Source of the DNA: Leifsonia sp. C5G2 | GTDB lineage: Bacteria > Actinomycetota > Actinomycetes > Actinomycetales > Microbacteriaceae | Assembly: GCF_013359685.1 (NCBI RefSeq) | Contig: NZ_JABFMV010000013.1 | Coordinates: forward strand, 62,001-126,000 | DNA: 64,000 nucleotides | Direction: 5' to 3' | Shown here: piece after piece, positions 4,682 to 53,954 of the stretch | How the letters are laid out: every line of letters begins with the position of its first letter | Numbering within the stretch: position 1 is the first letter of the stretch | The notes under the pieces: model-generated | The model's input: only the letters and a program-made list of their open reading frames with translations | Database searches by the model: none | Told to the model about the DNA's origin: nothing | Position numbers and translations under genes: made by a program

Positions 4682-5119
4682 ATGGCCATCCACCTCGAGA
4701 ACGTCGGCATCGCGGTCCGCGACCTGGAGGAGGCGGTCTCGTTCTTCACCGACCTCGGGCTGACGGTGGTCGGCCGCGACACGGTGAGCGGCGAGTGGAC
4801 GGACACCGCCGTCGGCCTCGACGGCAACCACGCGAGCATCGCCATGCTGCAGACGCCCGACGGGCAGGGCAGCATCGAGCTGTTCGAGTACCTCCACCCC
4901 GACGCGATCGAGACGGAGCCGACGCTGCCGAACGAGATCGGGATGCACCGCGTCGCGTTCTCGGTCGACGACATCGACGAGGCGCTCGCGATCGCGGCGA
5001 AGCACGGCTGCCGTCCGCTGCGCGGGGTCGCGAACTACCGCGACGTCTACAAGCTGACCTACCTGCGCGGCCCGAGCGGCATCCTCGTCATGCTGGCGCA
5101 GGACCTGACGAAGGGCTGA
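4682..5119 (+). CDS. VOC-family (glyoxalase/epimerase-like) protein
   Basis: A 145-residue protein with two beta-alpha-beta-beta-beta vicinal-oxygen-chelate modules. The first begins HLENVGIAVRDLEEAVSFF, and the second contains GMHRVAFSVDDIDEALAIAA and GPSGILVMLAQ. His near residue 3 and Glu in SIELFEYL are at metal-ligand positions of the fold, and the overall length and first module resemble methylmalonyl-CoA epimerases. It could equally be a lactoylglutathione lyase-like or resistance protein. It overlaps the convergent stress protein gene by 32 bases at the 3' ends. Confidence 0.8.
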   Translation: MAIHLENVGIAVRDLEEAVSFFTDLGLTVVGRDTVSGEWTDTAVGLDGNHASIAMLQTPDGQGSIELFEYLHPDAIETEPTLPNEIGMHRVAFSVDDIDEALAIAAKHGCRPLRGVANYRDVYKLTYLRGPSGILVMLAQDLTKG

Positions 5120-6008
5120 CGGCCACGGCCCGCGCGATCACGACGGGCAGGCGGGCGCGCAGCAGGACGTCGTGACCGACCGACCCGAGCACCACGCGCT
5201 TCACGCCGCGCCGGTCGTGGGTGCCCAGCACGAGCATCCGTGCGCCGCGCGCCTCAGAGACGAGGCCGTCGGACGCTGCCGCTTCGACCACGCGCGCGCG
5301 CACGACGAGCCCGGGATGCCTACGGAGGGCGCGGTCGGCGGCGGCCGTGACGATCCGTCCCCGCGCGTCGTCCGTCGCGGCCGGACCGGCAGCGCGGCGC
5401 CCGTTGCGGACCGCGCCGACGGCGTATCCGGCGTACACGACCACCAGCGGCTCCCCGAGTCGCGCGGCCTCGTCGCCCGCGAAGTCCACCGCCGGGCCGG
5501 TGGGAGGCTCCCCGTCGACGCCGACGACGATCCCGCGACCGTGGCCCCGCCAACCGTGCGGGACCGCCACCACGGTGCATGCCGCCGCGGACGCCACCCT
5601 CGCCGCGATCGACCCGGCCAGGGCGCGCTGCGTCCGCGCGGCGGGCGGGGTGCCGACGACCAGGAGCAGCGCCCCGGCGGAGGCGGCCACGACGTCGCGT
5701 CCGGCGTGCCCGAACAGGACACGGCTGCGGATCTCCGGCTCCGCTCGCGCCGGGTCGGCGTCCGCGTGCTCCAGGTGCAGGGCGGCTCGGGCGCGCCGCA
5801 GCGCGTAGCGCTCCTCCTCCGCGACGAGCGCGCGCCCGGCGAGCGTCAGCATCCGCCCGGACTGCTCCCCGCTGTCGGAGAAGGAGCGCTCGACGACGTG
5901 GATGAGCTCCAGCCTCGCCGGCATCCACGCGGCGCGGGCGGCGGCCCAGTCGAGGGCGGCGCGGTGCTCCGGCTCCCCGTCCACCGCCACCATGATCGTG
6001 TCCGCCAT
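5088..6008 (-). CDS. tandem-domain universal stress protein
   Basis: A 306-residue protein made of two Usp domains. Each begins with the strand and acidic residue of the fold (MVAVDGEPEH near residue 6; IVVGVDGEPPTGPAVDFA near residue 158). The C-terminal domain carries the ATP-binding pattern G-2x-G-9x-G-S (GTHDRRGVKRVVLGSVG); the first domain has a weaker version without the middle Gly (GTPPAARTQRALAGS), so ATP may bind only one half. The start ATG is preceded by GGAGGGG at good spacing. It is divergent from the TMEM175-like gene 150 bases away. In actinobacteria such proteins typically respond to starvation, hypoxia or oxidative stress. Confidence 0.9.
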   Translation of the reverse strand: MADTIMVAVDGEPEHRAALDWAAARAAWMPARLELIHVVERSFSDSGEQSGRMLTLAGRALVAEEERYALRRARAALHLEHADADPARAEPEIRSRVLFGHAGRDVVAASAGALLLVVGTPPAARTQRALAGSIAARVASAAACTVVAVPHGWRGHGRGIVVGVDGEPPTGPAVDFAGDEAARLGEPLVVVYAGYAVGAVRNGRRAAGPAATDDARGRIVTAAADRALRRHPGLVVRARVVEAAASDGLVSEARGARMLVLGTHDRRGVKRVVLGSVGHDVLLRARLPVVIARAVAVSPSSGPAPA

Positions 6009-6158
6009 CGGCCCCTCCGCGCATCCGCCGTGACACCACAACGGTAGCCTCCCGGCGCGCCCACGGCACGGTCGCGTGCCATCCCGGGCCGCCGCGGGCA
6101 GAATCGTCGCGAGCGCGCACGTTCGGGGCGCGCCGCGACCCGCAGCGACGGAGGAACC

Positions 6159-6761
6159 GTGTCCAAGGTCAGGCTGGAAGCGTTCAGCGACGGCGTGCTG
6201 GCGGTCGCCATCACGCTCCTCGTGCTCGACCTGCACCTGGAGCCGAGCCGGGAGCAGAGCCTGCTCGCGCAGCTCCTCGCCGCGTGGCCGTCGTTCGCCG
6301 CGTACGTCGTCAGCTTCCTCGTGATCGGCGTGATCTGGGTCAACCACCACTCGATCCTCCGCCTGACCACGGCCGTCGACCGGCTCCTGCTGTTCTGGAA
6401 CCTCATCCTGCTGATGTTCGTCACGGCCATCCCGTTCACGACCTCCACGCTCTCCGGCGCACTCGTGGAGGGCGACTCCGCCGACATCCGGGTCGCCGCC
6501 GTGCTGTACGGGGGCGCGTGCACGGGCTTCGCGGTCGCGTTCACGTTCCTGTACGGGCGCATCACGCTGGGCGCGGTGCGTGCGGGTGCGATGCAGCCCC
6601 CGGCCCGGCGCGCCGCGCTGCTGCGGTTCGGGGCGGGGACGCTGTTCTATCCGCTGCTCACCGTCGTCGGCGTGCTCTACGCCCCGGCCATGCTCGTCGG
6701 CTTCGCGGCGCTGAGCGTGTACTACCTGTTCAATCAGACCGGGACGGTGGAGTCCGCGTAG
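6159..6761 (+). CDS. TMEM175-family (DUF1211) integral membrane protein
   Basis: 200 residues. The N-terminal helix RLEAFSDGVLAVAITLLVLD carries the FSD pore signature of the TMEM175 potassium-channel family. Further helices lie near residues 40-60, 75-95, 105-128, 145-165 and 170-190. Bacterial members form tetrameric K+-permeable channels; activity here is inferred. It starts at GTG, 150 bases from the divergent universal stress gene. A second, diverged family member lies at 59.1 kb. Confidence 0.85.
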   Translation: MSKVRLEAFSDGVLAVAITLLVLDLHLEPSREQSLLAQLLAAWPSFAAYVVSFLVIGVIWVNHHSILRLTTAVDRLLLFWNLILLMFVTAIPFTTSTLSGALVEGDSADIRVAAVLYGGACTGFAVAFTFLYGRITLGAVRAGAMQPPARRAALLRFGAGTLFYPLLTVVGVLYAPAMLVGFAALSVYYLFNQTGTVESA

Positions 6762-6827
6762 CAACACCTGCGTAGCTTCGCGACCGTGTTGCGACCGGCG
6801 ACGCTGGCCTACGAAGCCTCTGGTCGC

Positions 6828-6833
6828 TAGTGT
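6828..6833 (+). promoter_or_regulatory. -10 element of a leaderless-type promoter
   Basis: TAGTGT ends seven bases before the GTG at 6841 of the DUF2971 gene, which lacks a Shine-Dalgarno sequence. Confidence 0.4.
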
Positions 6834-6840
6834 CCCGTGT

Positions 6841-7752
6841 GTGACGGACGAAGATGTACCGGCGGTGATCTACCACTACACCTCAATGGCGAACCTCCTG
6901 AGCATCCTGCGCAATCGAGAACTCTGGGCGAGCGATTTCCGCTATAGCAATGACGCAACAGAAACCAAGTACGGCCGCGATGCGTTAGTTGAGAAGATTC
7001 GCGCCCTCGCTCAGGAGTACCGCTCGCAACCGCCCACCTCTCCAGACGACAGACCGGATAGTCATAACAATCCCGCGTACTTTGCAAACATCTTCGAGGA
7101 AATCGCCACCGAGCAGGCCGAGCTCAAACGAGATTCGACACCGTTCGGAGTCGCTTTCTCGAAATCGGGTGACCGGTTGAGTCAATGGAGGGGCTACGCA
7201 GCTTCTAACGGCTGCTCCATCGGCATCGACAAGCGGAAGCTCATACCCGAGCCGCCGGACTTCCAGATGGACTACGAGTTCCTTGAGGTGGGTTACGGAT
7301 ATGCGGGAATCGACGCCGCATACGCGAGCATCCGGAGTGTAGTGGCACCGGTCGGAAGGACTTCGTCTAGCTTCGATCCTGAACGGAACCATGACATCAG
7401 GAGCAAGAGCTTCGCCTCACGCGCATTCTTGGCGGTCAAGGACCCCAGCTTCGAAGAAGAGCAGGAAGTCCGACTTCTGCTTTCGACGCCCCCATACCGC
7501 GGCGCCGAGGGTCACGACTCCTCAACCGATCGGGGTGAATTGTGTTTCCGGACGAGTCCCACGGGACTCGCGGTTCCCTATTGGAAGGTGCCGATAGATC
7601 CAGCGGGCATCCGAGAGATATATGTGGGCCCGGGAGTACACAAGGAGCGCAACATCGCGGCACTTCACGACTACTTTGAGCGGAGGGACTCGAAGTGGTT
7701 CGATTCATCCGTTAGTCCAGACATCCGCCCATCAGCGATCCCATTCCAGTAG
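6841..7752 (+). CDS. DUF2971 domain protein, probably acquired
   Basis: A 303-residue soluble protein. The N terminus YHYTSMANLLSILRNRELWA followed by SDFRYSNDATE is the hallmark of DUF2971, and the later segments FSKSGDRLSQWRGYA and SRAFLAVKDPSFEEEQEVRLL fit the same family. The biochemical role of DUF2971 is not established; proteins of this type often occur in variable genome islands and near phage-defence genes, which is background, not proof. The gene is visibly poorer in G+C than its neighbours and uses A/T-ending codons freely, suggesting horizontal transfer. It stands alone between a TMEM175-type gene and a convergent reductase gene. Confidence 0.78.
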   Translation: MTDEDVPAVIYHYTSMANLLSILRNRELWASDFRYSNDATETKYGRDALVEKIRALAQEYRSQPPTSPDDRPDSHNNPAYFANIFEEIATEQAELKRDSTPFGVAFSKSGDRLSQWRGYAASNGCSIGIDKRKLIPEPPDFQMDYEFLEVGYGYAGIDAAYASIRSVVAPVGRTSSSFDPERNHDIRSKSFASRAFLAVKDPSFEEEQEVRLLLSTPPYRGAEGHDSSTDRGELCFRTSPTGLAVPYWKVPIDPAGIREIYVGPGVHKERNIAALHDYFERRDSKWFDSSVSPDIRPSAIPFQ

Positions 7753-7794
7753 CCTGCCTCGCACACCGCGTGGGTTCGACCATCGAAATGCGAC

Positions 7795-8382
7795 TCATCC
7801 GTCGGATGATCGCGCTTGGTCGGAGTCGGCGTAGCGCAGCCTCCGGTACTCCTCGTAGACCACCCGCCCGCCGAAGGTCCGCGTGCCGACCAGGGCGAGC
7901 GGCAGCCGGTGGTCGAGGTCGGGCCAGTAGCGGGTGCCCCGGCCGATGACCACGGGGTAGCGGAACAGCCGGTACTCGTCGACGAGGTCGAGCCGGATCG
8001 CCTCTGCGGCGAGGTCCGCTCCCCCGATCGAGACGTCGCCGTCGGCCGAGGCCAGGGCGGCCGTTACCTCCTCCTCGACGGAACCGGTCGCGAGGCGGGC
8101 GTTCCCCTCCACCTGGGTCAGCGTCCGGCTGAAGACGACCTTCGGGAGGGCGGACCAGCTCTCGGCGAAGGCCACCCCCGACCGCGGAGCCCGCAGCGAC
8201 GGGTCCGTGTCCCACACCCGCATCGTCTCGTACAGCCGGCGCCCCAGCAGGTAGCCGCCCAGCCGCGCGACCTGACCGGCCTGGAACCGGAACTGCTCGT
8301 CGCCCGGCGCCGTGAAGTCGAACGCGCCCTCGTCGTCGGCGATGAAGCCGTCCGCCGAGACCCCCATCGAGTAGATCAGCAC
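7795..8382 (-). CDS. dihydrofolate reductase / RibD C-terminal family protein
   Basis: About 195 residues matching the RibD_C/DHFR-like fold: LIYSMGVSADGFIADDEGAF at the start, GGYLLGRRLYETMRVWDTD, then DVSIGGADLAAEAIRLDLVD and the strand YPVVIGRG. These proteins bind NADPH; those outside riboflavin operons have unknown substrates. The frame is open upstream to an ATG at 8457, but the family normally begins at the LIYSM segment and the divergent small gene's leader occupies the upstream part, so I favour the GTG at 8380-8382. The start is uncertain. Confidence 0.78.
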   Translation of the reverse strand: MLIYSMGVSADGFIADDEGAFDFTAPGDEQFRFQAGQVARLGGYLLGRRLYETMRVWDTDPSLRAPRSGVAFAESWSALPKVVFSRTLTQVEGNARLATGSVEEEVTAALASADGDVSIGGADLAAEAIRLDLVDEYRLFRYPVVIGRGTRYWPDLDHRLPLALVGTRTFGGRVVYEEYRRLRYADSDQARSSDG

Positions 8383-45851: not shown

Positions 45852-47732
45852 TCAGTCGCGATCGAAGTCGGCGTCGACGACGTCGTCGTCGCTGTCCTCG
45901 GCTGTGGGCTCGCCGCCCGGCGCGGAGGATCCCTGGGCGGGGCGGGCGACCGACAGCGCAGCGTCGACCTGCCGCAACTCGCTCGTCAGCTCCCGGGCCT
46001 CGGAGGCGGGGACCTCCCGTTCGACGGCCTCCCTCGCCTGACCGACGAGCAATTCGGCGCGCGACCGCTCGTGCGCCGGGGCCGCGTCGCCGTGCTCCGC
46101 CAGCGCGCGTTCGACCCGGTAGGCGGCGGCGTCCAGCTCGTTCCTCGCGTCGATGTCCTCGCGCAGGCGCTGGTCCGCGGCTCGGTTCTGCTCGGCCTCC
46201 CGCACCATCCGGTCGATCTCCGCCTGATCCAGAGTGGTGGTGCCGCTGATGGTGATGCCCTGCTCCGCTCCCGTGTCCTTGTCGCGCGCGGTGACGTTGA
46301 GGATGCCGTTCGCGTCGATGTCGAAGGTGACCTCGATCTGCGGCTCGCCCCGGGGAGCCGGCCGGATGCCCGTCAACGTGAAGCGGCCGAGCACGCGATT
46401 GTCCGCGGCGCGCTCGCGCTCTCCCTGCAGCACGACGATCTCGACCGAGTCCTGGTTGTCCTGCGCGGTGGAGAACACCTCGCTCCGGCGCGCAGGGATC
46501 GTGGTGTTGCGCTCGATGATCGGCGTCATCACCCCGCCGCGCGTCTCGACGCCCAGCGAGAGCGGGGTGACGTCCAACAGGAGGACGTCGCTGACCTCGC
46601 CCTTCAGCACGCCGGCCTGAATGGCCGCGCCGATGGCGACGACCTCGTCGGGGTTCACGGTCATGTTGGGGTCTTTGCCACCGGTGAGGCGCTTGACGAG
46701 CTCCTGCACCGCAGGGATCCTGGTGGAGCCGCCCACCAGGATGACCTCGTCGATGTCATTCTCGGTGACCTTGGCATCCTCCATCGCCCGGCGCACCGGG
46801 CCGAGGCAGCGCTCGATCAAGTCGGCGGTGATGTTCTCGAAGGTGGCGCGCTTGAGCGTGGTCGTCAGGTGCTTCGGCCCGGCCGCGTCCGCCGTGATGA
46901 ACGGCAGGCTCACCTGGGTCTGGCTCACGCTGCTCAGCTCGACCTTCGCCTTCTCCGCCGCCTCGAACAACCGCTGGAGGGCCTGCGGGTCGTTGCGGAG
47001 GTCGATTCCGTTCTCCTTCTGGAACTCGTCCGCCAGGTAGTCGACGATGCGGCGGTCGAAGTCGTCGCCGCCGAGGTGCGTGTCGCCCGCGGTCGAGCGC
47101 ACTTCGACGACGCCGTCCCCGACGTCGAGCAGGCTGACGTCGAAGGTGCCGCCGCCGAGGTCGAACACCAGGACCGTCTCGTGCTCCTTCTTGTCCAGCC
47201 CGTAGGCCAGGGCGGCCGCGGTCGGCTCGTTGATGATCCGCAGCACCTCGAGACCGGCGATGCGCCCCGCATCCCTGGTCGCCGTCCGCTGCGCGTCGTT
47301 GAAGTACGCCGGGACGGTGATGACCGCCTCCGTCACCTTCTCGCCGAGGAACTTGGCCGCGTCGTCCGCCAGCTTCCGCAGCACGAGCGCGCTGATCTCC
47401 TCCGGCGCGTACAGTTTGCCGCGCACGTCGAACCGGGCCTCGCCGTTCGGACCCGCCACGATGTCGAAGCCGACCGCCTTGGCCTCCTCCTCGATCTCGT
47501 CGAAGGACCGCCCGATGAAGCGCTTGGCCGAGGAGATCGTGCCCTTCGGGTTCAGGATCGCCTGACGGCGCGCGAGCTGGCCGACCAGGCGCTCCCCCGT
47601 GTCGGTGAACGCGACGACGGACGGCGTGGTGCGAGCGCCCTCGGCGTTCGGGATGACCCGCGCCTCACCGCCCTCCCACACCGCGATCACCGAGTTCGTC
47701 GTGCCGAGATCGATGCCGACTGCCTTAGCCAT
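45852..47732 (-). CDS. dnaK: molecular chaperone DnaK (Hsp70)
   Basis: 626 residues. The ATPase domain opens [20 protein letters not shown] and has [19 protein letters not shown] and [13 protein letters not shown]; the substrate domain begins [20 protein letters not shown]; the C-terminal lid ends in the acidic tail [12 protein letters not shown]. It is slightly short in the C-terminal tail compared with E. coli. Sequence such as [17 protein letters not shown] in the lid differs from typical housekeeping copies, and the gene order (hsp20 first, clpB in the same operon) suggests a second, stress-specific Hsp70. AAGGAG precedes the ATG. Confidence 0.95.
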
Positions 47733-47759
47733 GAACCCTGCTCCTTCGTGGTCCTGTCT

Positions 47760-48206
47760 TCACTCGTCCGGCGGCACGTCGCCGCCGGGGTCGTCCGTGT
47801 CGTCCGCTTGCGGCGAGATCTCCACCCGGCGTGCCGTGCTCGACTCGTCCACCGGGACGAGCAGCGTCAGCACCCCGCTGCCGAGGTGCGCCGTGAGCCT
47901 CGAACTGTCGAGGCTGTCGCCGAGGAAGAGCCGGCGCACGAACTCCCCGCGCGGGCGCTCATCGACCAGAACGAGGTCGTCGGGGGCGAACTTCGGCCGC
48001 CGCTGAACCGTGATGGTGAGCACGTTGCGCTCGACGCTCACGTCGATGTCGCGGATGTCGACCCCCGGCACGTCCGCGATGACGACGTACTGGCCTCCTC
48101 GCCGGTAGGCCTCCAGAGGTACCGCGTACGTACGCCGGTTGGCGCCGAGCGCCTGCTCGACGGCACGATCGACGTCCCGCGGAACGTCGAACCGCATCAG
48201 ACTCAT
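47760..48206 (-). CDS. small heat shock protein Hsp20
   Basis: 148 residues. After MSLMRFDVPRDVDRAVEQA comes the alpha-crystallin domain: GQYVVIADVPGVDIRDIDVS, VERNVLTITVQRRPK, and FVRRLFLGDSLDSSRLTAHL with GVLTLLVPV. The acidic tail lacks an obvious IxI motif. It holds unfolded proteins for DnaK/ClpB. Two starts have ribosome sites: ATG 48206 (GGGAGG) and GTG 48251 (GGAGG at ideal spacing), the latter adding 15 residues. It is the first gene of the stress operon. Confidence 0.88.
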   Translation of the reverse strand: MSLMRFDVPRDVDRAVEQALGANRRTYAVPLEAYRRGGQYVVIADVPGVDIRDIDVSVERNVLTITVQRRPKFAPDDLVLVDERPRGEFVRRLFLGDSLDSSRLTAHLGSGVLTLLVPVDESSTARRVEISPQADDTDDPGGDVPPDE

Positions 48207-48270
48207 CTCGCCTCCCGCCGATCGCTCGATCTGCACTATGCGCCGGGCCACGCTTTTCCTCCTGGACCGG

Positions 48271-48294
48271 CCGGGGCGAAGAATCCCGCCCCGG
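48271..48294. promoter_or_regulatory. inverted repeat in the hsp20 leader region
   Basis: Eight-base arms CCGGGGCG/CGCCCCGG around AAGAATCC lie 19 bases upstream of the longer hsp20 start, between the stress operon and the divergent PucR-type gene. It could be an operator or an RNA hairpin close to the ribosome site. It does not match the HAIR (HspR) or CIRCE (HrcA) consensus. Confidence 0.45.
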
Positions 48295-48339
48295 GTTGCA
48301 CTGTCAGGGGCAGCGGGCGAGGACTACCATGGGCGGCAA

Positions 48340-50013
48340 ATGGACGCGTCGAGTTCTCCGAACTCCGTCGCACAGGCCGACCCTGGAGCGGAAGCAGAAC
48401 CGGGTCTGTACGACGTCTTCAGGGTGGGCTCCGCGATGTTCGAGCGTCCCTCCGTCCGGCGGACCATGCGTCTGGCCTGCACCGCGGCGGAGGAGATCGC
48501 GGGGTGCGCTGTGCGGGCCGCCTACGTCGCCTCGCAGGGGCGCCTCGTCCGGTACTCGGGCAAGGAGGACCGGCGACTCGATCACCTCGTCGAGGCCCGA
48601 GGCGGCACCAGCGGAGCAATCGGCGGCGACGGCGCCTGGCGCTTCGCGCTCTTCTTCCGGGGAACCGGTAAAGTGCGCGGCGCCTTCGCACTGGAGGCGG
48701 CGGGCGAACCGTCCCGTGCGAGCGTGCGCCTCCTCCTGGCGCTGGCGGAACCGACAGGCGCCGCACTCGCGGCCGCCGAGCTGATCGACCGCGAACGCCG
48801 CCAGGCCAGGGAACTGCGCCGGCTCGGGAAGGTCAACGAGTCGTCCACTCTCGCGATGGCGGCCACCATCGTGCAACTGAACGCGCAGCAGCAGATCCGC
48901 GATGAGATCGTCGCCGCGGCCCGATCGGGCAATGGCGAGGGCCAGATCGTCGAGACGGTGAGCAGGATCACCCGGCGATCGATCGTGCTGCAGGACTCGT
49001 TCGGGAACGAGCTCGTCTACGCCGGCGTCGCGGATCCCACGGCTCCGGCCGGCAGGACCACGGCCGCCGGCAATCTCTCGACGGCCGACCGGTCGACGTC
49101 CGGCTGGCGCAGAACGACGATCAGCTCGCGGGGAGAGACCCTCGGCGTCTTCGGCATCTACGACCCGGAGGACACCCGGAGCGAGGACGACCGCTTCGCC
49201 GTCGAGTATGCGAGTGGGACCATCGCGGTCGAGCTGGCCCACCGCCGCAACGTCGCAGAGGTCGAGCTCCGGCTCGGTCGCGACCTCGCGGACGACCTCG
49301 TCTCGGGAGGCGAAGTCGTCGACGCCCTCGCGCGCGCTGAGGCCCTCCACTTCGACCTCGGAGGCCTCCACCGGGCGATGCTCGTCACCTGGGAGACGCC
49401 CACCCCGAACGGCGTCGACGTCAGCGCGGCGGTCCGCTACCAGCTCACGGTGATGCACATTCCGTCGCTGATCTCCCGGCGCCCGGAGGCGACCCTCGCG
49501 GTCGTCGCGGACGGCCACGACCTCTCCCGGCTCTACGAGGGTCTCTCCGCCGCCCTGACCAGCGTCCGGGGCACGATCGGCATCGGCGGGCGCTGCGAGG
49601 CGAGGGATCTTCCGCGCTCGTACGCCGAAGCCCGCCGGGCGCTGCGCATCCGGGTGGAGTCGCGTCAGCCCCTCGGGCTGACGAACCACGACGACCTCGG
49701 CCTGCTCCGCATCCTCGACACCTCGGACGAGGGAGCGAGGCTGGAGCGGTTCATCGGCGAGTGGCTCGGCCCCCTCGTCGAGTACGACCACCTGCATCAT
49801 TCCGAGCTCGTCCGCACCCTGACCGTCTACCTCGACTCCGGCGGGAACTACGATCGCACGGCGGCTGAGCTCGTCATCCACCGCAGCACCCTGCGGTATC
49901 GTCTCCGGCGTATCCGGGAGGTGGGCGAGCGCGACCTCTCCGATCCGGAGTCCCGGCTGAACCTGCACGTTGCCGTCCGGGCCCGGGCAGCGCTGGCCGA
50001 CCAGCTCCGGTGA
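48340..50013 (+). CDS. PucR/CdaR-type helix-turn-helix regulator
   Basis: 557 residues. The N-terminal ~190 residues have no firm family (GLYDVFRVGSAMFERPSVRR); a GAF-like region follows (ETVSRITRRSIVLQDSFGNE, TLGVFGIYDPEDTRSEDDRF). The C terminus has the GGDEF-like PucR region and the HTH_30 domain YLDSGGNYDRTAAELVIHRS followed by TLRYRLRRIREV. Such regulators respond to small metabolites. The ATG at 48340 follows TACCAT by nine bases. It is divergent from hsp20, so it may influence the stress operon, though that is inference. Confidence 0.85.
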   Translation: MDASSSPNSVAQADPGAEAEPGLYDVFRVGSAMFERPSVRRTMRLACTAAEEIAGCAVRAAYVASQGRLVRYSGKEDRRLDHLVEARGGTSGAIGGDGAWRFALFFRGTGKVRGAFALEAAGEPSRASVRLLLALAEPTGAALAAAELIDRERRQARELRRLGKVNESSTLAMAATIVQLNAQQQIRDEIVAAARSGNGEGQIVETVSRITRRSIVLQDSFGNELVYAGVADPTAPAGRTTAAGNLSTADRSTSGWRRTTISSRGETLGVFGIYDPEDTRSEDDRFAVEYASGTIAVELAHRRNVAEVELRLGRDLADDLVSGGEVVDALARAEALHFDLGGLHRAMLVTWETPTPNGVDVSAAVRYQLTVMHIPSLISRRPEATLAVVADGHDLSRLYEGLSAALTSVRGTIGIGGRCEARDLPRSYAEARRALRIRVESRQPLGLTNHDDLGLLRILDTSDEGARLERFIGEWLGPLVEYDHLHHSELVRTLTVYLDSGGNYDRTAAELVIHRSTLRYRLRRIREVGERDLSDPESRLNLHVAVRARAALADQLR

Positions 50014-50014
50014 C

Positions 50015-52642
50015 TCAGGGGGCGCTCCCGAAACGGAACACGCGCGGGTCCTCCCCCGGCCCGGCGACGAGGGACTCCGCGACCTGGACACGGAGCAGGG
50101 AGCCGTCGCGGCCACGGATGTCGTCGAACACACCGAGGGCCAGCCCCGTCCCCTCCACCGGCGAGAGCCCGTCGCGCCGTTCCGGCTCTCGGTGACAGCG
50201 CAGCGTCGTCCTGCGGTCGAAGAGGATCGCCTCGTCGTCGAGCGCCCCGGTCTCCACGACGGTGACACGGTCGAGCGCCTCGGTGAATTCGGCCGGGAAC
50301 CCGCGAACCGCTTCGCCCCTGCCGCCGTACGGGGCGATCAGGATGAAGTGCTCGGCCTGCGCCCGCAGGTCCATCGCGATGTCGTGGAGGGATGTCGCGG
50401 TGCGATCGAGCCGGGTGCCGTCCACCTCCCGGAGGATGGCGACGAGCCTCCGCTCCTCCGCGTCCGTGAACGCGTCGGCGATCATCCGGCCCAGCGCGTC
50501 GGTGCCGGCGTCGTCTCCGGCGGGACCCGCGTCGACGAAGGAGCGGCGGGGGACCGAGAAGTTCATGCCGAGGACCGGGTGATGCTCGCCGCTGCCGTCG
50601 AACGCTTCCGGCTCATCGGGGAGCAGCTGCGCGAGACCCCCTCGCTCCGCCAGCGCCGCCCGGAGGGAGCCGGCGAGCGCCTCGATCCTCGGCCCCGACA
50701 CCGGGGCGCGCGCGAGCCGCTCGTCCTCTGCGGCATCCCACTCGCCGAGCTCCTCCTGGAGGCTCCGCCTGAGGTGGCCTTCCGCGGTGCCGGTCGTGCC
50801 GCTCGTGTCCGGGATCAGCCGGAGGAGCCGCCCGTACTCGGCGGCCGTCTCATCGTCCTCCGCGTCCGGCAGCGTTCCGGACGTGCCGACGAGCGCCGCC
50901 AGCTGGGCGCGATCGAGGAATCCCGGCAGGGTCGCCCTGTCGCCGCCGCTCTCCCATCTGTCCCACCGGATGAACGGCGCGCCGACGTCGATCACGTCCC
51001 GCGCGGCGAAGATGTCGTGCCAGGATCCGTCCGGACGCACGACCGCCTCGAGGCCCGAACCGGACGGAGCGCGCCGGTCGCCCGTCTCCGCGAGGTACGC
51101 GAGCCAGGCGGAGAGGACGAGGAGACCGGCGCGGGCGTGGACGCGGGTGCGGCCGTCCAGGCCGGACTCGACGACACCGCGGAGCTCGGCGGCCGCCATC
51201 GCGGCGGCGTCCGGCCGCCCCGCGTCGACCGCCAGTCCGACCAGCTCCACCATCGCCCAGACCGCGTGCGTCCCCAGTACGCCCGGCTCCTCCGCGGACG
51301 GGTCCGTGTACGCGATGAGATCACGGACGCACGCGACGATGCGCACCGGCAGTTCCTCGAACTCCGGCCCACCCTGTCGGAGGATGTCCGACCATTGCCG
51401 CGTGAAGCTCCGCAGGCACTCGTCGACGTACTCGGTGGAGCCCGTCGCCGGGGCCTCGAGGGCACGGACCGTCGCCGCGCTGATGAAGACGTGCGCGACC
51501 TGGGGAGACAGCAAGGCGTCCCGTTCCACCTCGCCGATGGTCTGGAAGAGTCCGATGCCCCGCGCCAGCGAGCCTCGCGGAGGGGTGATGCCGCGGTCGA
51601 GCTCGGTCATCCAGGCGCCGCGCACGATGTGGCCGAGCAGCTCCAGTGCCCGCTCGGCGGTGTCCAGGGCGCCCGAGCGCAGGGTGGTACCGATGGCGTC
51701 CTTCAGGGTGGCGATCTCACGCTCGGTGTCCTCGTAGGGGGTGACCGCCTCACGCGGTTCGACCGAGATGCTCGACTGCAGCAGCCGGACCACCCGCGCG
51801 GCGGTCCGGGGGTCGAGGCGGGCCGACGTGACGACCCGGAACGCCGTGTCCCCGAGCCTGGTGCGGTCGCCCGGGTGGATGTCGAGCAGGATCCGCGGCG
51901 ACGAGTAGTCGTCCACGGGGCCGTGCTCGGACGACCCGCGGGCGGTCGCCGCCAGGCCCAGCGAGCCGCTCGCCTGGCGGACGGCCTTCGACCGGATGGC
52001 CTTGACGACCCTCCCGGCCTGCGGGACCGGAACGTTCAACGTCGAGGCGGCGGGTCCGAACGGACGGGCGGCCTCTTCCGGCGCGAGCAGCTCGCTCACC
52101 CCCTTCGCCGCGTCGGCGTAGCGGCGCGTCACGCGGTCGAGGCGATCGGACAGCGTCTCGACCAGCGAGGACCGCACCACCTCGTCGAGCCGGGAGGGAT
52201 GCCCGAAGAGGTGGGTGAGTCTGGACGTCGAGACCAGGAGCAGGGCGGCGGTGGCCACGAACCAGGCGAACGAGAGGATGACGCCGCCGGCGCTCGGCAG
52301 CCAGATCGTTTCGAGGGTCATGACCGCATTGGAGACCAGCCCCACGGTGACGAACCAGCTCGCGCCGATGTAGGCCAGGATCCGCTTGCGTGACGTCCCG
52401 ATCGCGAGGGGCGCCTCCGCGAACAGCTGGGCGGCGATCGTCAGGCCGGCGAAACCGACGGAAAGGAACGTCGTCTGCACCGTCCAGAGCACCGCATCGG
52501 AGCCGGACACCGGGGGGAGGTGCCGGCGCACCCAGGCGGGATCTCCCCCGTAGTGGAAGACGCAGAGCAGCGCCACGCTGACGACCAGCGCCACCGTCAC
52601 GAGGGCGACCTCGCGCCGCCAGGGGCCGGACGATTCCTTCAC
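50015..52642 (-). CDS. large membrane-anchored protein of unknown function (875 aa)
   Basis: Four hydrophobic helices lie in the first ~145 residues: VALVTVALVVSVALLCVFHY (about 10-30), LWTVQTTFLSVGFAGLTIAA (about 50-72), ILAYIGASWFVTVGLVSNAV and GVILSFAWFVATAALLLVST. The following ~730 residues are soluble and largely helical, with FFxx-free segments such as DAIGTTLRSGALDTAERALE and SPQVAHVFISAATVRALEAP. No catalytic motif or family was recognised. It starts at a GTG overlapping the stop of the 129-residue acidic protein, so the two are translationally coupled and may work together. Confidence 0.75.
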   Translation of the reverse strand: MKESSGPWRREVALVTVALVVSVALLCVFHYGGDPAWVRRHLPPVSGSDAVLWTVQTTFLSVGFAGLTIAAQLFAEAPLAIGTSRKRILAYIGASWFVTVGLVSNAVMTLETIWLPSAGGVILSFAWFVATAALLLVSTSRLTHLFGHPSRLDEVVRSSLVETLSDRLDRVTRRYADAAKGVSELLAPEEAARPFGPAASTLNVPVPQAGRVVKAIRSKAVRQASGSLGLAATARGSSEHGPVDDYSSPRILLDIHPGDRTRLGDTAFRVVTSARLDPRTAARVVRLLQSSISVEPREAVTPYEDTEREIATLKDAIGTTLRSGALDTAERALELLGHIVRGAWMTELDRGITPPRGSLARGIGLFQTIGEVERDALLSPQVAHVFISAATVRALEAPATGSTEYVDECLRSFTRQWSDILRQGGPEFEELPVRIVACVRDLIAYTDPSAEEPGVLGTHAVWAMVELVGLAVDAGRPDAAAMAAAELRGVVESGLDGRTRVHARAGLLVLSAWLAYLAETGDRRAPSGSGLEAVVRPDGSWHDIFAARDVIDVGAPFIRWDRWESGGDRATLPGFLDRAQLAALVGTSGTLPDAEDDETAAEYGRLLRLIPDTSGTTGTAEGHLRRSLQEELGEWDAAEDERLARAPVSGPRIEALAGSLRAALAERGGLAQLLPDEPEAFDGSGEHHPVLGMNFSVPRRSFVDAGPAGDDAGTDALGRMIADAFTDAEERRLVAILREVDGTRLDRTATSLHDIAMDLRAQAEHFILIAPYGGRGEAVRGFPAEFTEALDRVTVVETGALDDEAILFDRRTTLRCHREPERRDGLSPVEGTGLALGVFDDIRGRDGSLLRVQVAESLVAGPGEDPRVFRFGSAP

Positions 52643-53028
52643 TTGCGGCTGAACTTCGCCGCCAGCTCCTGGGCCTTCCCCTTCACTTCCGCTTCCACCC
52701 GCTGGGCGAGCTGCTGGAGCCGGCGGAGCGGACGGATCAGGGCGGCGTGACGGTGACTCGGCTCCTCGCTCGTCTCCTCCAGCGGCACAACGAACTCGTC
52801 GTCGGCCACCGAGACCACGAACGCGGAGTCGTCGGGGTTGAGGGCGATGCTCACCGGCACGGCCTCCCCCGAGTCCGGGTCCACGGCGACGGCGTTGACC
52901 GCGATGTCGACATGCTCGCCGTCGTCGACCTCGACGAGGACGATGTCGGTGAGAGGCCCTCCCTCCAGTTCGAGGACGAACTCGTCCTGCGCGGGCGTCC
53001 GCTTCCCGTCGTTGCTGTCGCCGGCCAT
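52639..53028 (-). CDS. acidic 129-residue protein coupled to the large membrane protein
   Basis: A beta-rich, strongly acidic first part (DEFVLELEGGPLTDIVLVEV, VDIAVNAVAVDPDSGEAVPV, DSAFVVSVADDEFVVPLEE) is followed by a basic, helical C terminus (ALIRPLRRLQQLAQRVEAEV). No family recognised. AAGGAG lies six bases before the ATG. Its TGA overlaps the GTG of the 875-residue membrane protein gene, suggesting a defined stoichiometry between the two products. Confidence 0.7.
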   Translation of the reverse strand: MAGDSNDGKRTPAQDEFVLELEGGPLTDIVLVEVDDGEHVDIAVNAVAVDPDSGEAVPVSIALNPDDSAFVVSVADDEFVVPLEETSEEPSHRHAALIRPLRRLQQLAQRVEAEVKGKAQELAAKFSRK

Positions 53029-53141: not shown

Positions 53142-53459
53142 CTACTCGCCGGAGTCCTCCTCGTGCTTGACGGCGAGGAGGTCGACCGTGCTCAGCTCGG
53201 GGTCCTTCGCCAGCAGGGACGGCCCCACCTCCGCGAGCGCCTTCGGGATGGCGCCGCCCAGGTGCGCTTCCCGCGCCGCTTCGTCGGCGAAGCTGTCGAA
53301 GATGCCGAAATGCGTCTCGTCGAGCTGGAACGCGTACCACGTGCGCGTGCCGGGCTCGAGGTCGACAAGGGTCTTGCCGCCGATCAGGAACTCCCTGAGT
53401 TCCGCAGCTCTGTCGGGCTTCGCTTCGAGCAGCGCGAGTACACCCAGTGTGAGGTCCAT
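53142..53459 (-). CDS. ABM-domain protein, putative quinol monooxygenase-like
   Basis: 105 residues with the ferredoxin-like antibiotic-biosynthesis-monooxygenase fold: DLTLGVLALLEAKPDRAAEL, REFLIGGKTLVDLEPGTRTW, YAFQLDETHFGIFDSFADEA and AARE.AHLGGAIPKAL-like helix. Members are cofactor-free quinol oxygenases or redox-stress proteins of uncertain activity. AAGGAGAG precedes the ATG. It lies between the acidic protein gene and the DUF1931 gene. Confidence 0.82.
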   Translation of the reverse strand: MDLTLGVLALLEAKPDRAAELREFLIGGKTLVDLEPGTRTWYAFQLDETHFGIFDSFADEAAREAHLGGAIPKALAEVGPSLLAKDPELSTVDLLAVKHEEDSGE

Positions 53460-53504: not shown

Positions 53505-53954
53505 TCAGAGGAGCAGGTCGAAGACGCGGGTGGCCTGTTCCCAGTGGCGGCTTTGCGGGTTCTTCGTCTTCTCGTCCAGGATCCGGAACGTCCGGGCCAG
53601 CGCGACGCCGAGTCCGCCGGCGATCTGCGGAAGCCTCTCCCGGGTCTCGTCGCTGTAGGCGAGATCGAGCGGGGGTCGCCTCGTCACCTGTTCGAGGATG
53701 GCATCCATCGACACGTCCTCGTCGATCGACTCGAACGCGTGGATGGACTCCTGCAGACCTTTGGTGATCGGCAGGTCCTGGGGCTCGACGACGTCGCGGC
53801 CGTTGGCCTTCGCGTTCGCCACGCCGCGCAGCAGCAGGTCGTAGATCTTGTCGTTGACGAACTCGTCGAAGCGCCGGAGGTCGTCCTTGTCCACGTCGAG
53901 ACTGGCGGCCAGGCGGAAGAAGCGTTCGAACTTTGCGATACCGAAGAGTTCCAT
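53505..53954 (-). CDS. DUF1931 double histone-fold protein
   Basis: 149 residues starting ELFGIAKFERFFRLAASLDV, then DKDDLRRFDEFVNDKIYDLL, DLPITKGLQESIHAFESIDE, LAYSDETRERLPQIAGGLGV and FRILDEKTKNPQSRHWEQAT. This matches DUF1931, whose structurally known member from Aquifex (Aq_328) contains two histone folds in one chain. The role of such proteins in bacteria is unsettled; DNA binding is a reasonable guess. It belongs to the minus-strand run of stress-type genes here. A weak GGGAG lies upstream of the ATG. Confidence 0.87.
   Translation of the reverse strand: MELFGIAKFERFFRLAASLDVDKDDLRRFDEFVNDKIYDLLLRGVANAKANGRDVVEPQDLPITKGLQESIHAFESIDEDVSMDAILEQVTRRPPLDLAYSDETRERLPQIAGGLGVALARTFRILDEKTKNPQSRHWEQATRVFDLLL

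Follow-up and report, generated by a model that had tools for sequence, protein, structure and literature searches.

Genes at the locus

The window, by which we mean the whole stretch of 64,000 nucleotides that was analysed, comes from Leifsonia sp. C5G2 (contig NZ_JABFMV010000013.1, positions 62,001 to 126,000). At positions 50015-53028 it carries two overlapping genes on the minus strand: a large gene that codes for a membrane protein of 875 residues and a small gene that codes for an acidic protein of 129 residues. Our main subject is the large protein, whose C-terminal part of about 230 residues very likely adopts the HK97 fold, judging by predicted structure. The original prediction had placed the two open reading frames (ORFs) at these coordinates, with an overlap of four bases (GTGA). 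Both points hold, as the small ORF stops with TGA and the large ORF has its GTG start at 52642. We regard both ORFs as real genes, because their frames are kept in homologues. The features of the locus are the following.

50015..52642, minus strand: large protein, 875 aa, GTG start; membrane-anchored, with a predicted C-terminal HK97-fold domain (ORF and translation, homologues, AlphaFold2 model)
52202..52624, minus strand: four transmembrane (TM) helices, residues about 7-147, with both ends predicted to face inwards (model helices, hydropathy, counts of lysine and arginine)
51818..52057, minus strand: small beta-rich domain, residues about 196-275 (model strands); possibly like the matching part of DUF2254, which is suggestive
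50882..51817, minus strand: helical, repeat-like region, residues about 276-587 (model; Foldseek matches to solenoids at low TM-scores, which reflect the general arrangement)
50018..50707, minus strand: predicted domain of HK97/encapsulin fold, residues about 646-875 (predicted structure compared with VIA-align and Foldseek)
52639..53028, minus strand: small acidic protein, 129 aa, ATG start; overlaps the large gene by 4 bases, a neighbour in the stress island

A predicted HK97 fold at the C-terminus

The AlphaFold2 model of the full-length protein has a mean predicted local distance difference test score (pLDDT) of 73.6 and a predicted template modelling score (pTM) of 0.57. In the VIA-align comparison of this model, encapsulins rank first for residues 644-875. 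The best row is the Pyrococcus virus-like particle 2e0z (Z 14.1, 196 aligned residues, root mean square deviation (rmsd) 3.0), and the matches include the HK97 capsid (Z 11.7). A Foldseek search of viral models with the full model gave mostly capsid and head proteins in its first rows (best E 5.6e-4). In the corresponding PDB search, the top matches of the whole chain were armadillo/HEAT-like solenoids, at low TM-scores. Since the VIA-align list for the full model barely probes the N-terminal two thirds of the protein, we make no claim that these have a new fold.

Residues 588-875 folded alone score above the full model (pLDDT 83.7, pTM 0.76). With this domain, Foldseek found 112 matches in the PDB at E <= 1e-3, the best at E 6.6e-9. 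Among the best 50 of these 112, every title names an encapsulin, a virus-like particle, a nanocage or a phage capsid, and we take each of these 50 structures to have the HK97 fold. The TM-score of the best row is moderate (0.48 by query, 0.57 by target). In VIA-align, 2e0z again matches the domain (Z 12.9, 193 aligned residues, rmsd 3.9), most encapsulins reach Z 11-12.5, and the HK97 capsid is at about 11 (11.0). The P22 procapsid reaches Z 12.2 in the VIA-align comparisons. The nine homologues from outside the genus were aligned over their full length and not folded one by one.

Several observations speak against the assignment. The alignment from which the models were built has only 10 rows, and the Z for 2e0z is lower with the separately folded domain (12.9) than with the full model (14.1). 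In the list for the full model, two rows that match helical repeats elsewhere in the protein score Z 11.3-11.5, so a high Z is not selective by itself. In Pfam, neither Linocin_M18 (PF04454) nor Phage_capsid (PF05065) matched any of the 10 aligned members of the family at E <= 10, with HMMER filters that drop most weak matches, and a PHROGs scan of the C-terminal domain gave chance-level matches only (E 0.3 and 0.48). In hhalign, the C-terminal family gave P 0.77 against 23 encapsulins, and P 0.49 and 0.19 against two small capsid sets; reversed controls went down to P 0.041, and several were better than these comparisons. The encapsulin and capsid profiles used here were shallow: 23 out of 24 encapsulin loci were included (the partial match L074 was dropped), and 15 capsid loci gave 10 extracted and 6 used sequences, in two sets. 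Because the sequence profiles do not support it, the HK97 assignment rests on predicted structure, and we claim no sequence homology to encapsulins, since hhalign gave no support for it.

We were not able to find a relative of the large protein in 50,697 phage records (tblastn), in viral contigs, for which the query was the C-terminal domain, or in plasmid records, for which it was the homologue from Humibacillus. No phage head or packaging genes were noticed among the called neighbours, which were not scanned against PHROGs.

Membrane part, helical and beta regions

The four N-terminal helices of the original prediction are borne out, as hydropathy and predicted structure agree on them. The nine homologues from outside the genus have hydrophobic stretches in the same N-terminal region; in two of them (L042 and L045) the chosen start cuts the first helix, and those starts may be wrong. 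The numbers of lysine and arginine residues are 3, 2, 3, 0 and 3 for the N-terminus, loop 1, loop 2, loop 3 and the stretch after the fourth helix. They mildly agree with a topology in which both ends of the TM region would be cytosolic, so that the ~730 residues that follow the helices are probably in the cytosol.

The large protein had also been described as belonging to no recognised family. This stands for the sequence libraries, in which it has no match at E up to 5 (Pfam, NCBIfam and PADLOC; in PADLOC-DB 2.0.0 this is true for either protein of the window at E <= 5), and it does not stand for the fold, since the C-terminal HK97/encapsulin fold is recognisable. The homologue from Actinopolyspora, the one that was scanned in PADLOC, gave a marginal match (E 0.0098). 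A Pfam scan of the 10 aligned members at E up to 10 resulted in nine matches, each to a single member. We did not credit the best of these (CitMHS, E 0.0013) and consider the rest to be at chance level. The best match to a PDB entry by sequence (E 0.013) was likewise not credited.

For the N-terminal half, a comparison suggests, but does not show, a likeness to DUF2254 (PF10011). The hhalign alignment of residues 249-341 with this family is collinear, with P 0.0084 and a probability of 5%; the singly reversed controls gave P 0.16 and 0.2, the doubly reversed one, which keeps the relation, 0.012, and the next-best alternative alignments 0.053 and 0.094. The DUF2254 set consisted of 15 out of 16 loci, the weak L036 having been dropped. 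Both families have N-terminal TM helices, and these are followed in DUF2254 by a region that matches the large protein weakly and collinearly. On the other hand, the DUF2254 sequences used, cut back to near the beginning of their Pfam match, have 416-465 residues, too few to include an HK97 domain as well. None of the 10 members is matched at E <= 10 by the DUF2254 model of Pfam; in the window's genome this model finds, over its cut-off, a separate DUF2254 gene and not the large gene. A search for a solved relative of DUF2254 gave none at E <= 1. We know of no established function of DUF2254; knotted predicted models have been noted within the family (PMC11184937).

Distribution and base composition

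The large protein is a rare and patchy actinobacterial protein. In a set of 60 related genomes, with the window's own included, five carry the large gene, namely the genome itself and G003, G005, G019 and G023, all of the same genus. A class-wide sample had it in three out of 394 genomes, the own genome included. In a family sample of 299 genomes it was found in the own genome only; the other four carriers were presumably not drawn. At the level of the phylum, a profile search (396 genomes) gave the own genome and two matches at E 6e-4. These we rejected as chance, or as a shared beta-sandwich in the case of the first; their ORFs appear to code for a thymidine phosphorylase and for a GTPase of the HflX type. 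In each genome, the wide searches scored no more than 2-3 candidates.

A scan of 84,980 species genomes for two peptide patterns of the TM region, which would miss relatives of the HK97 part alone, led to nine loci outside the genus: in Humibacillus, Cellulomonas, Micrococcaceae, Actinopolyspora, Nocardia, Demequina, Microbacterium, Jiangella and Nocardioides. All nine copies align over the full length. Seven of them are 48-53% identical to the window's protein over the alignment, one 37% and one 20%; the latter two are the outside matches of the class-wide sample.

The domains have diverged to different degrees. Between the window's protein and the seven closer homologues, identity is 36-44% in the HK97 part, 56-63% in the TM part and 57-66% in the first helical part. 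When the eight closer members are compared pairwise, the HK97 part is at 56%, the TM and first helical parts are at 67-68%, and the beta domain and linkers at 48-51%.

Outside the genus, the GC content of the large gene is 0.585-0.622, compared with a mean of 0.614 to 0.728 for its neighbours. Among the called genes longer than 300 nt, the large gene has the lowest GC at third codon positions (GC3) in six of the nine loci, and it ranks between 1 and 3 in eight; on the Humibacillus contig its rank is 6 of 11. Most likely, the large gene has spread horizontally as a single gene.

The small gene and the stress region in the genus

Overall, the small protein is acidic, as had been predicted (27 aspartate and glutamate residues versus 12 lysine and arginine residues, isoelectric point (pI) 4.4). 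Its charge is split between residues 1-92, with pI 4.05, and a basic end, residues 93-129, with pI 11.7. Matches below threshold (PF16450, E 0.013; HAMP, 0.18; PyCsp, 0.1) were taken as chance.

From the overlap of the two genes it had been concluded that translational coupling makes their products stoichiometric partners. This is not borne out: homologues of the large gene are found that lack the small gene as a neighbour, and the copies in the genus are separated. In the nine loci outside the genus, no homologue of the small gene was found in flanks of up to 8 kb (best E 1.1; the whole genomes were not searched). In the four other genus genomes with both genes, the two are never adjacent, lying about 0.8 kb (G019), 1.2 kb (G005), 2.0 kb (G023) and 8.8 kb (G003) apart, and the genes between them are YtfJ-like, CsbD, DUF1931, ABM-like, TetR or sugar-metabolism-like (in part named from Pfam). 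As the genes are apart in these genomes, the GTGA overlap is a local arrangement. In G005, the large protein is reduced to an N-terminal piece of about 106 residues that runs into an unrelated frame, which we presume to be hydrolase-like, while the small gene nearby is intact. An obligate partnership does find support in the overlap itself, and in the fact that both genes occur in the same five of 28 genus genomes, the window's included. These five carriers are not clustered on the genus tree at all: on the tree of a Clp-type gene that is common to the 28 genomes they need five changes, and 500 out of 500 shuffles were as low. However, we attribute this co-occurrence to linkage, because both genes lie in one accessory stress region. 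An obligate partnership is thus very improbable, and the small protein is better described as a passenger in this stress island. Weak matches to the small gene in other genera (G028, G032) were not credited; the one in G028 is inside a gene that we take to be release-factor-like.

The genes next to the pair in the window are the following.

53142..53459, minus strand: small ABM-like protein, 105 aa (Pfam ABM, E 9.5e-4, under the curated cut-off); possibly upstream in the same transcription unit
53505..53954, minus strand: DUF1931 protein, 149 aa (Pfam PF09123, E 3.5e-56); the first of four genes on the same strand
48247..50013, plus strand: PucR-type regulator (Pfam HTH_30 and GGDEF_2); its start codon is not settled

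The PucR-type regulator is convergent with the large gene in all four genus genomes that hold more than a fragment of it. In another genus genome, G021, the same regulator is found with 61% identity, and neither the large nor the small gene was seen in the 20 kb examined. From this and from the scatter of the carriers, the region seems to have been moved or lost often.

An accessory heat-shock and redox cluster (window positions 45852-48251 and L019:996-10207) is scattered in the genus as well. Its genes code for a cNMP-binding disulfide oxidoreductase, zf-UBP, thioredoxin, ClpB, an HspR-like protein, DnaJ, GrpE, DnaK and HSP20, and the cluster looks like an actinobacterial transmissible locus of stress tolerance. 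The ClpB beside the large gene shares 95% identity with the corresponding proteins of G003, G019 and G023; the forms in G021 and G010 are at 90% and 83%, and other Clp-type matches are found in all 28 genomes. The G005 locus (L014:7357-9350) is a decaying copy in which the DUF1931 match is split in two and the region is read through, on the opposite strand, by a DEAD-box-like ORF.

Two of the carriers have lost a part of the large protein. In G003 and G023 it ends at 593 and 631 aa, similarity to the window's protein stops at residue 580-581, and no further piece of it was found at these loci at E 1e-5. The HK97 domain is therefore separable, which fits a modular sensor or scaffold and also fits dispensability of the domain in these genomes.

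Neighbours outside the genus

The neighbourhoods were called with our own codon-usage script, so that small genes may have been missed. At the nine outside loci the first codon-usage model never called the large gene, and a second model was used. At 0.7 kb from the 3' end of the large gene in Jiangella begins a CBASS set (cyclase, HORMA, TRIP13 and NucC); in Demequina, the next gene upstream is an AbiH gene (according to Pfam; PADLOC gave no match). In Nocardia, a weakly LmuA-like protein (E 1.2e-6) is encoded about 3.6 kb away. The large gene is found 0.2-1.8 kb downstream of a gene that we take to be ychF in three of the nine loci, which are from different groups (L042, L043 and L045, near 5100-8000). 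This suggests that the ychF side is a common place of insertion, possibly a hot spot. A comparison by eye in our own gene calls gave no candidate cargo gene common to the neighbourhoods of the nine loci; a cargo could be encoded elsewhere.

Two more observations concern these loci. The Jiangella stretch with the large gene and CBASS also encodes a protein of 992 aa (L047:1917-4895) with dsRNA-binding, RNase III-like and HATPase parts, and the gene adjoining it is presumably response-regulator-like. At L043:11091-11967, two ORFs on the same strand follow downstream of the large gene, the second with a DUF559 nuclease-like piece; this is possibly a decayed defence gene.

What the protein may do

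According to the model, the four TM helices would hold a cytosolic beta domain and a helical repeat, and these would carry the C-terminal HK97-fold domain, which would thus face the cytosol at the inner membrane. In encapsulins and phage heads, the N-terminus is at the inner face of the shell. An ordinary closed shell is unlikely, because some 640 residues and a membrane anchor per subunit would not fit inside: by our own arithmetic, about 60 such arms, each of some 70 kDa, would take up roughly 5000 cubic nm, compared with about 4200 in a 20-nm cavity. Realistic options would be rings or patches on the membrane, or a mixed assembly with another HK97-fold protein.

Infecting phages are the obvious source of other HK97-fold proteins in such cells; in the window's own genome we found 0 matches to PF04454 or PF05065. 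The domain would act in assemblies of the size of a capsomer or co-assemble with incoming capsid proteins, the protein would recognise or poison phage head assembly at the membrane, and the TM module would act as the effector. An anti-phage role, by sensing or by interference with capsids, is suggested by the patchy spread, the foreign base composition and the defence genes at two of the nine outside copies. The lower conservation of the HK97 part relative to the TM part also counts in favour of this reading. We put membrane-tethered sensing or poisoning of capsids first, ahead of a stress scaffold and a ring-forming transporter, because the possible HK97 partners are phage capsids and because the gene has probably spread horizontally; its probability is about 0.35-0.4. 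In its full form, the proposal is a new kind of immune protein, in which a captured capsid-fold domain, held at the membrane by four helices, would co-assemble with phage capsid protein, and which would spread as a single gene (about 0.35).

A good deal of what we have seen does not favour this proposal. In the genus, the copies of the large gene sit among heat-shock and stress genes and not beside defence genes, and outside the genus clear defence genes flank only two of the nine loci. Other neighbours there that were run through PADLOC gave little: three had no match, and of ten more nine had no match and one a marginal one. Since the defence neighbours were counted without a null model, the count is a hint. 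Two congeners, G003 and G023, keep the first ~580 residues of the protein and do without the HK97 domain. The GC3 of the window's large gene is 0.92. Finally, among the eight closer members the linkers and the beta domain vary at least as much as the HK97 domain.

Another explanation is that the large protein is a membrane-bound relative of encapsulins that acts in stress, with HK97-fold lattices or patches that would sequester cargo, or shape or protect the membrane or damaged proteins, together with the neighbouring chaperones. In the genus, the large gene adjoins the accessory HSP20-DnaK-GrpE-DnaJ-HspR-ClpB set, CsbD, DUF1931 and ABM-like genes are near, and the window's genome has a second DnaK elsewhere besides the accessory one. 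Moreover, encapsulins match the fold better than phage capsids do, though the differences in Z are small. However, no such neighbours were noticed by eye around the nine outside loci (not all called genes were scanned), no conserved cargo gene was seen, and the domain that would form the lattice is the very part that two congeners have lost while keeping the rest. We consider this explanation somewhat unlikely. Losing the domain would be less of a problem if it were a device for oligomerisation, in rings of five or six, of a DUF2254-like transporter or channel gated by the beta domain and the helical repeat, since a working core would be left in these two genomes. In DUF2254, TM helices, a beta domain and helices follow one another in a similar way, and the weak profile match (residues 249-341, P 0.0084) is collinear. 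On the other hand, the hhalign probability of 5% is under any accepted threshold, the Pfam model matches none of the 10 members, and the lack of an established function for DUF2254 known to us counts against a transporter or channel too, so that this explanation is improbable, though less so than the obligate partnership of the two genes.

A long membrane-anchored arm that ends in an HK97 fold would be a new use of a building block derived from viruses. It would make testable whether bacteria turn capsid folds on phages, or lay shell-like coats on their own membranes. The protein also illustrates how much is missed by sequence, as Pfam and PHROGs have no credible match for a domain whose predicted fold is clear.

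Comparison with known systems

In the open-licence literature in PMC, we found no report of a membrane-anchored HK97-fold protein of such an architecture; the HK97 fold as such is known in cellular proteins. The nearest of these would be the encapsulins, of which a survey, in the part available to us, describes four families (Andreas and Giessen 2021, PMC8346489). Like them, the large protein is cellular, encoded on the chromosome and predicted to have the HK97 fold, and its best structural matches are encapsulins together with the Pyrococcus virus-like particle. Unlike them, it is about 880 aa long, with a four-helix N-terminal anchor and a helical region ahead of the HK97 domain, has no match in Pfam, and has no conserved cargo gene that we could see. 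Among the encapsulins in that part of the survey, only those of Family 3 from Mesorhizobium bear TM helices, with 4-5 predicted in a C-terminal extension (PMC8346489), that is, at the opposite end from those of the large protein; the others described there are free proteins of the shell. The HK97-fold major capsid proteins of phages (PF05065 and others) would be alike in fold; the large protein differs from them in having no sequence match to them and in that its HK97 domain is fused to a membrane protein.

A further comparison is with CapRel SJ46, a fused toxin-antitoxin that, according to the abstract, is triggered by a phage major capsid protein bound via its C-terminal domain (PMC9712102). 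That abstract does not mention a capsid fold or a membrane anchor, both of which the large protein is predicted to have. CapRel is thus a known case in which immunity of bacteria reads capsid protein directly. The likeness is one of logic only: a protein of the cell meets the capsid protein of a phage, as is proposed for the large protein.

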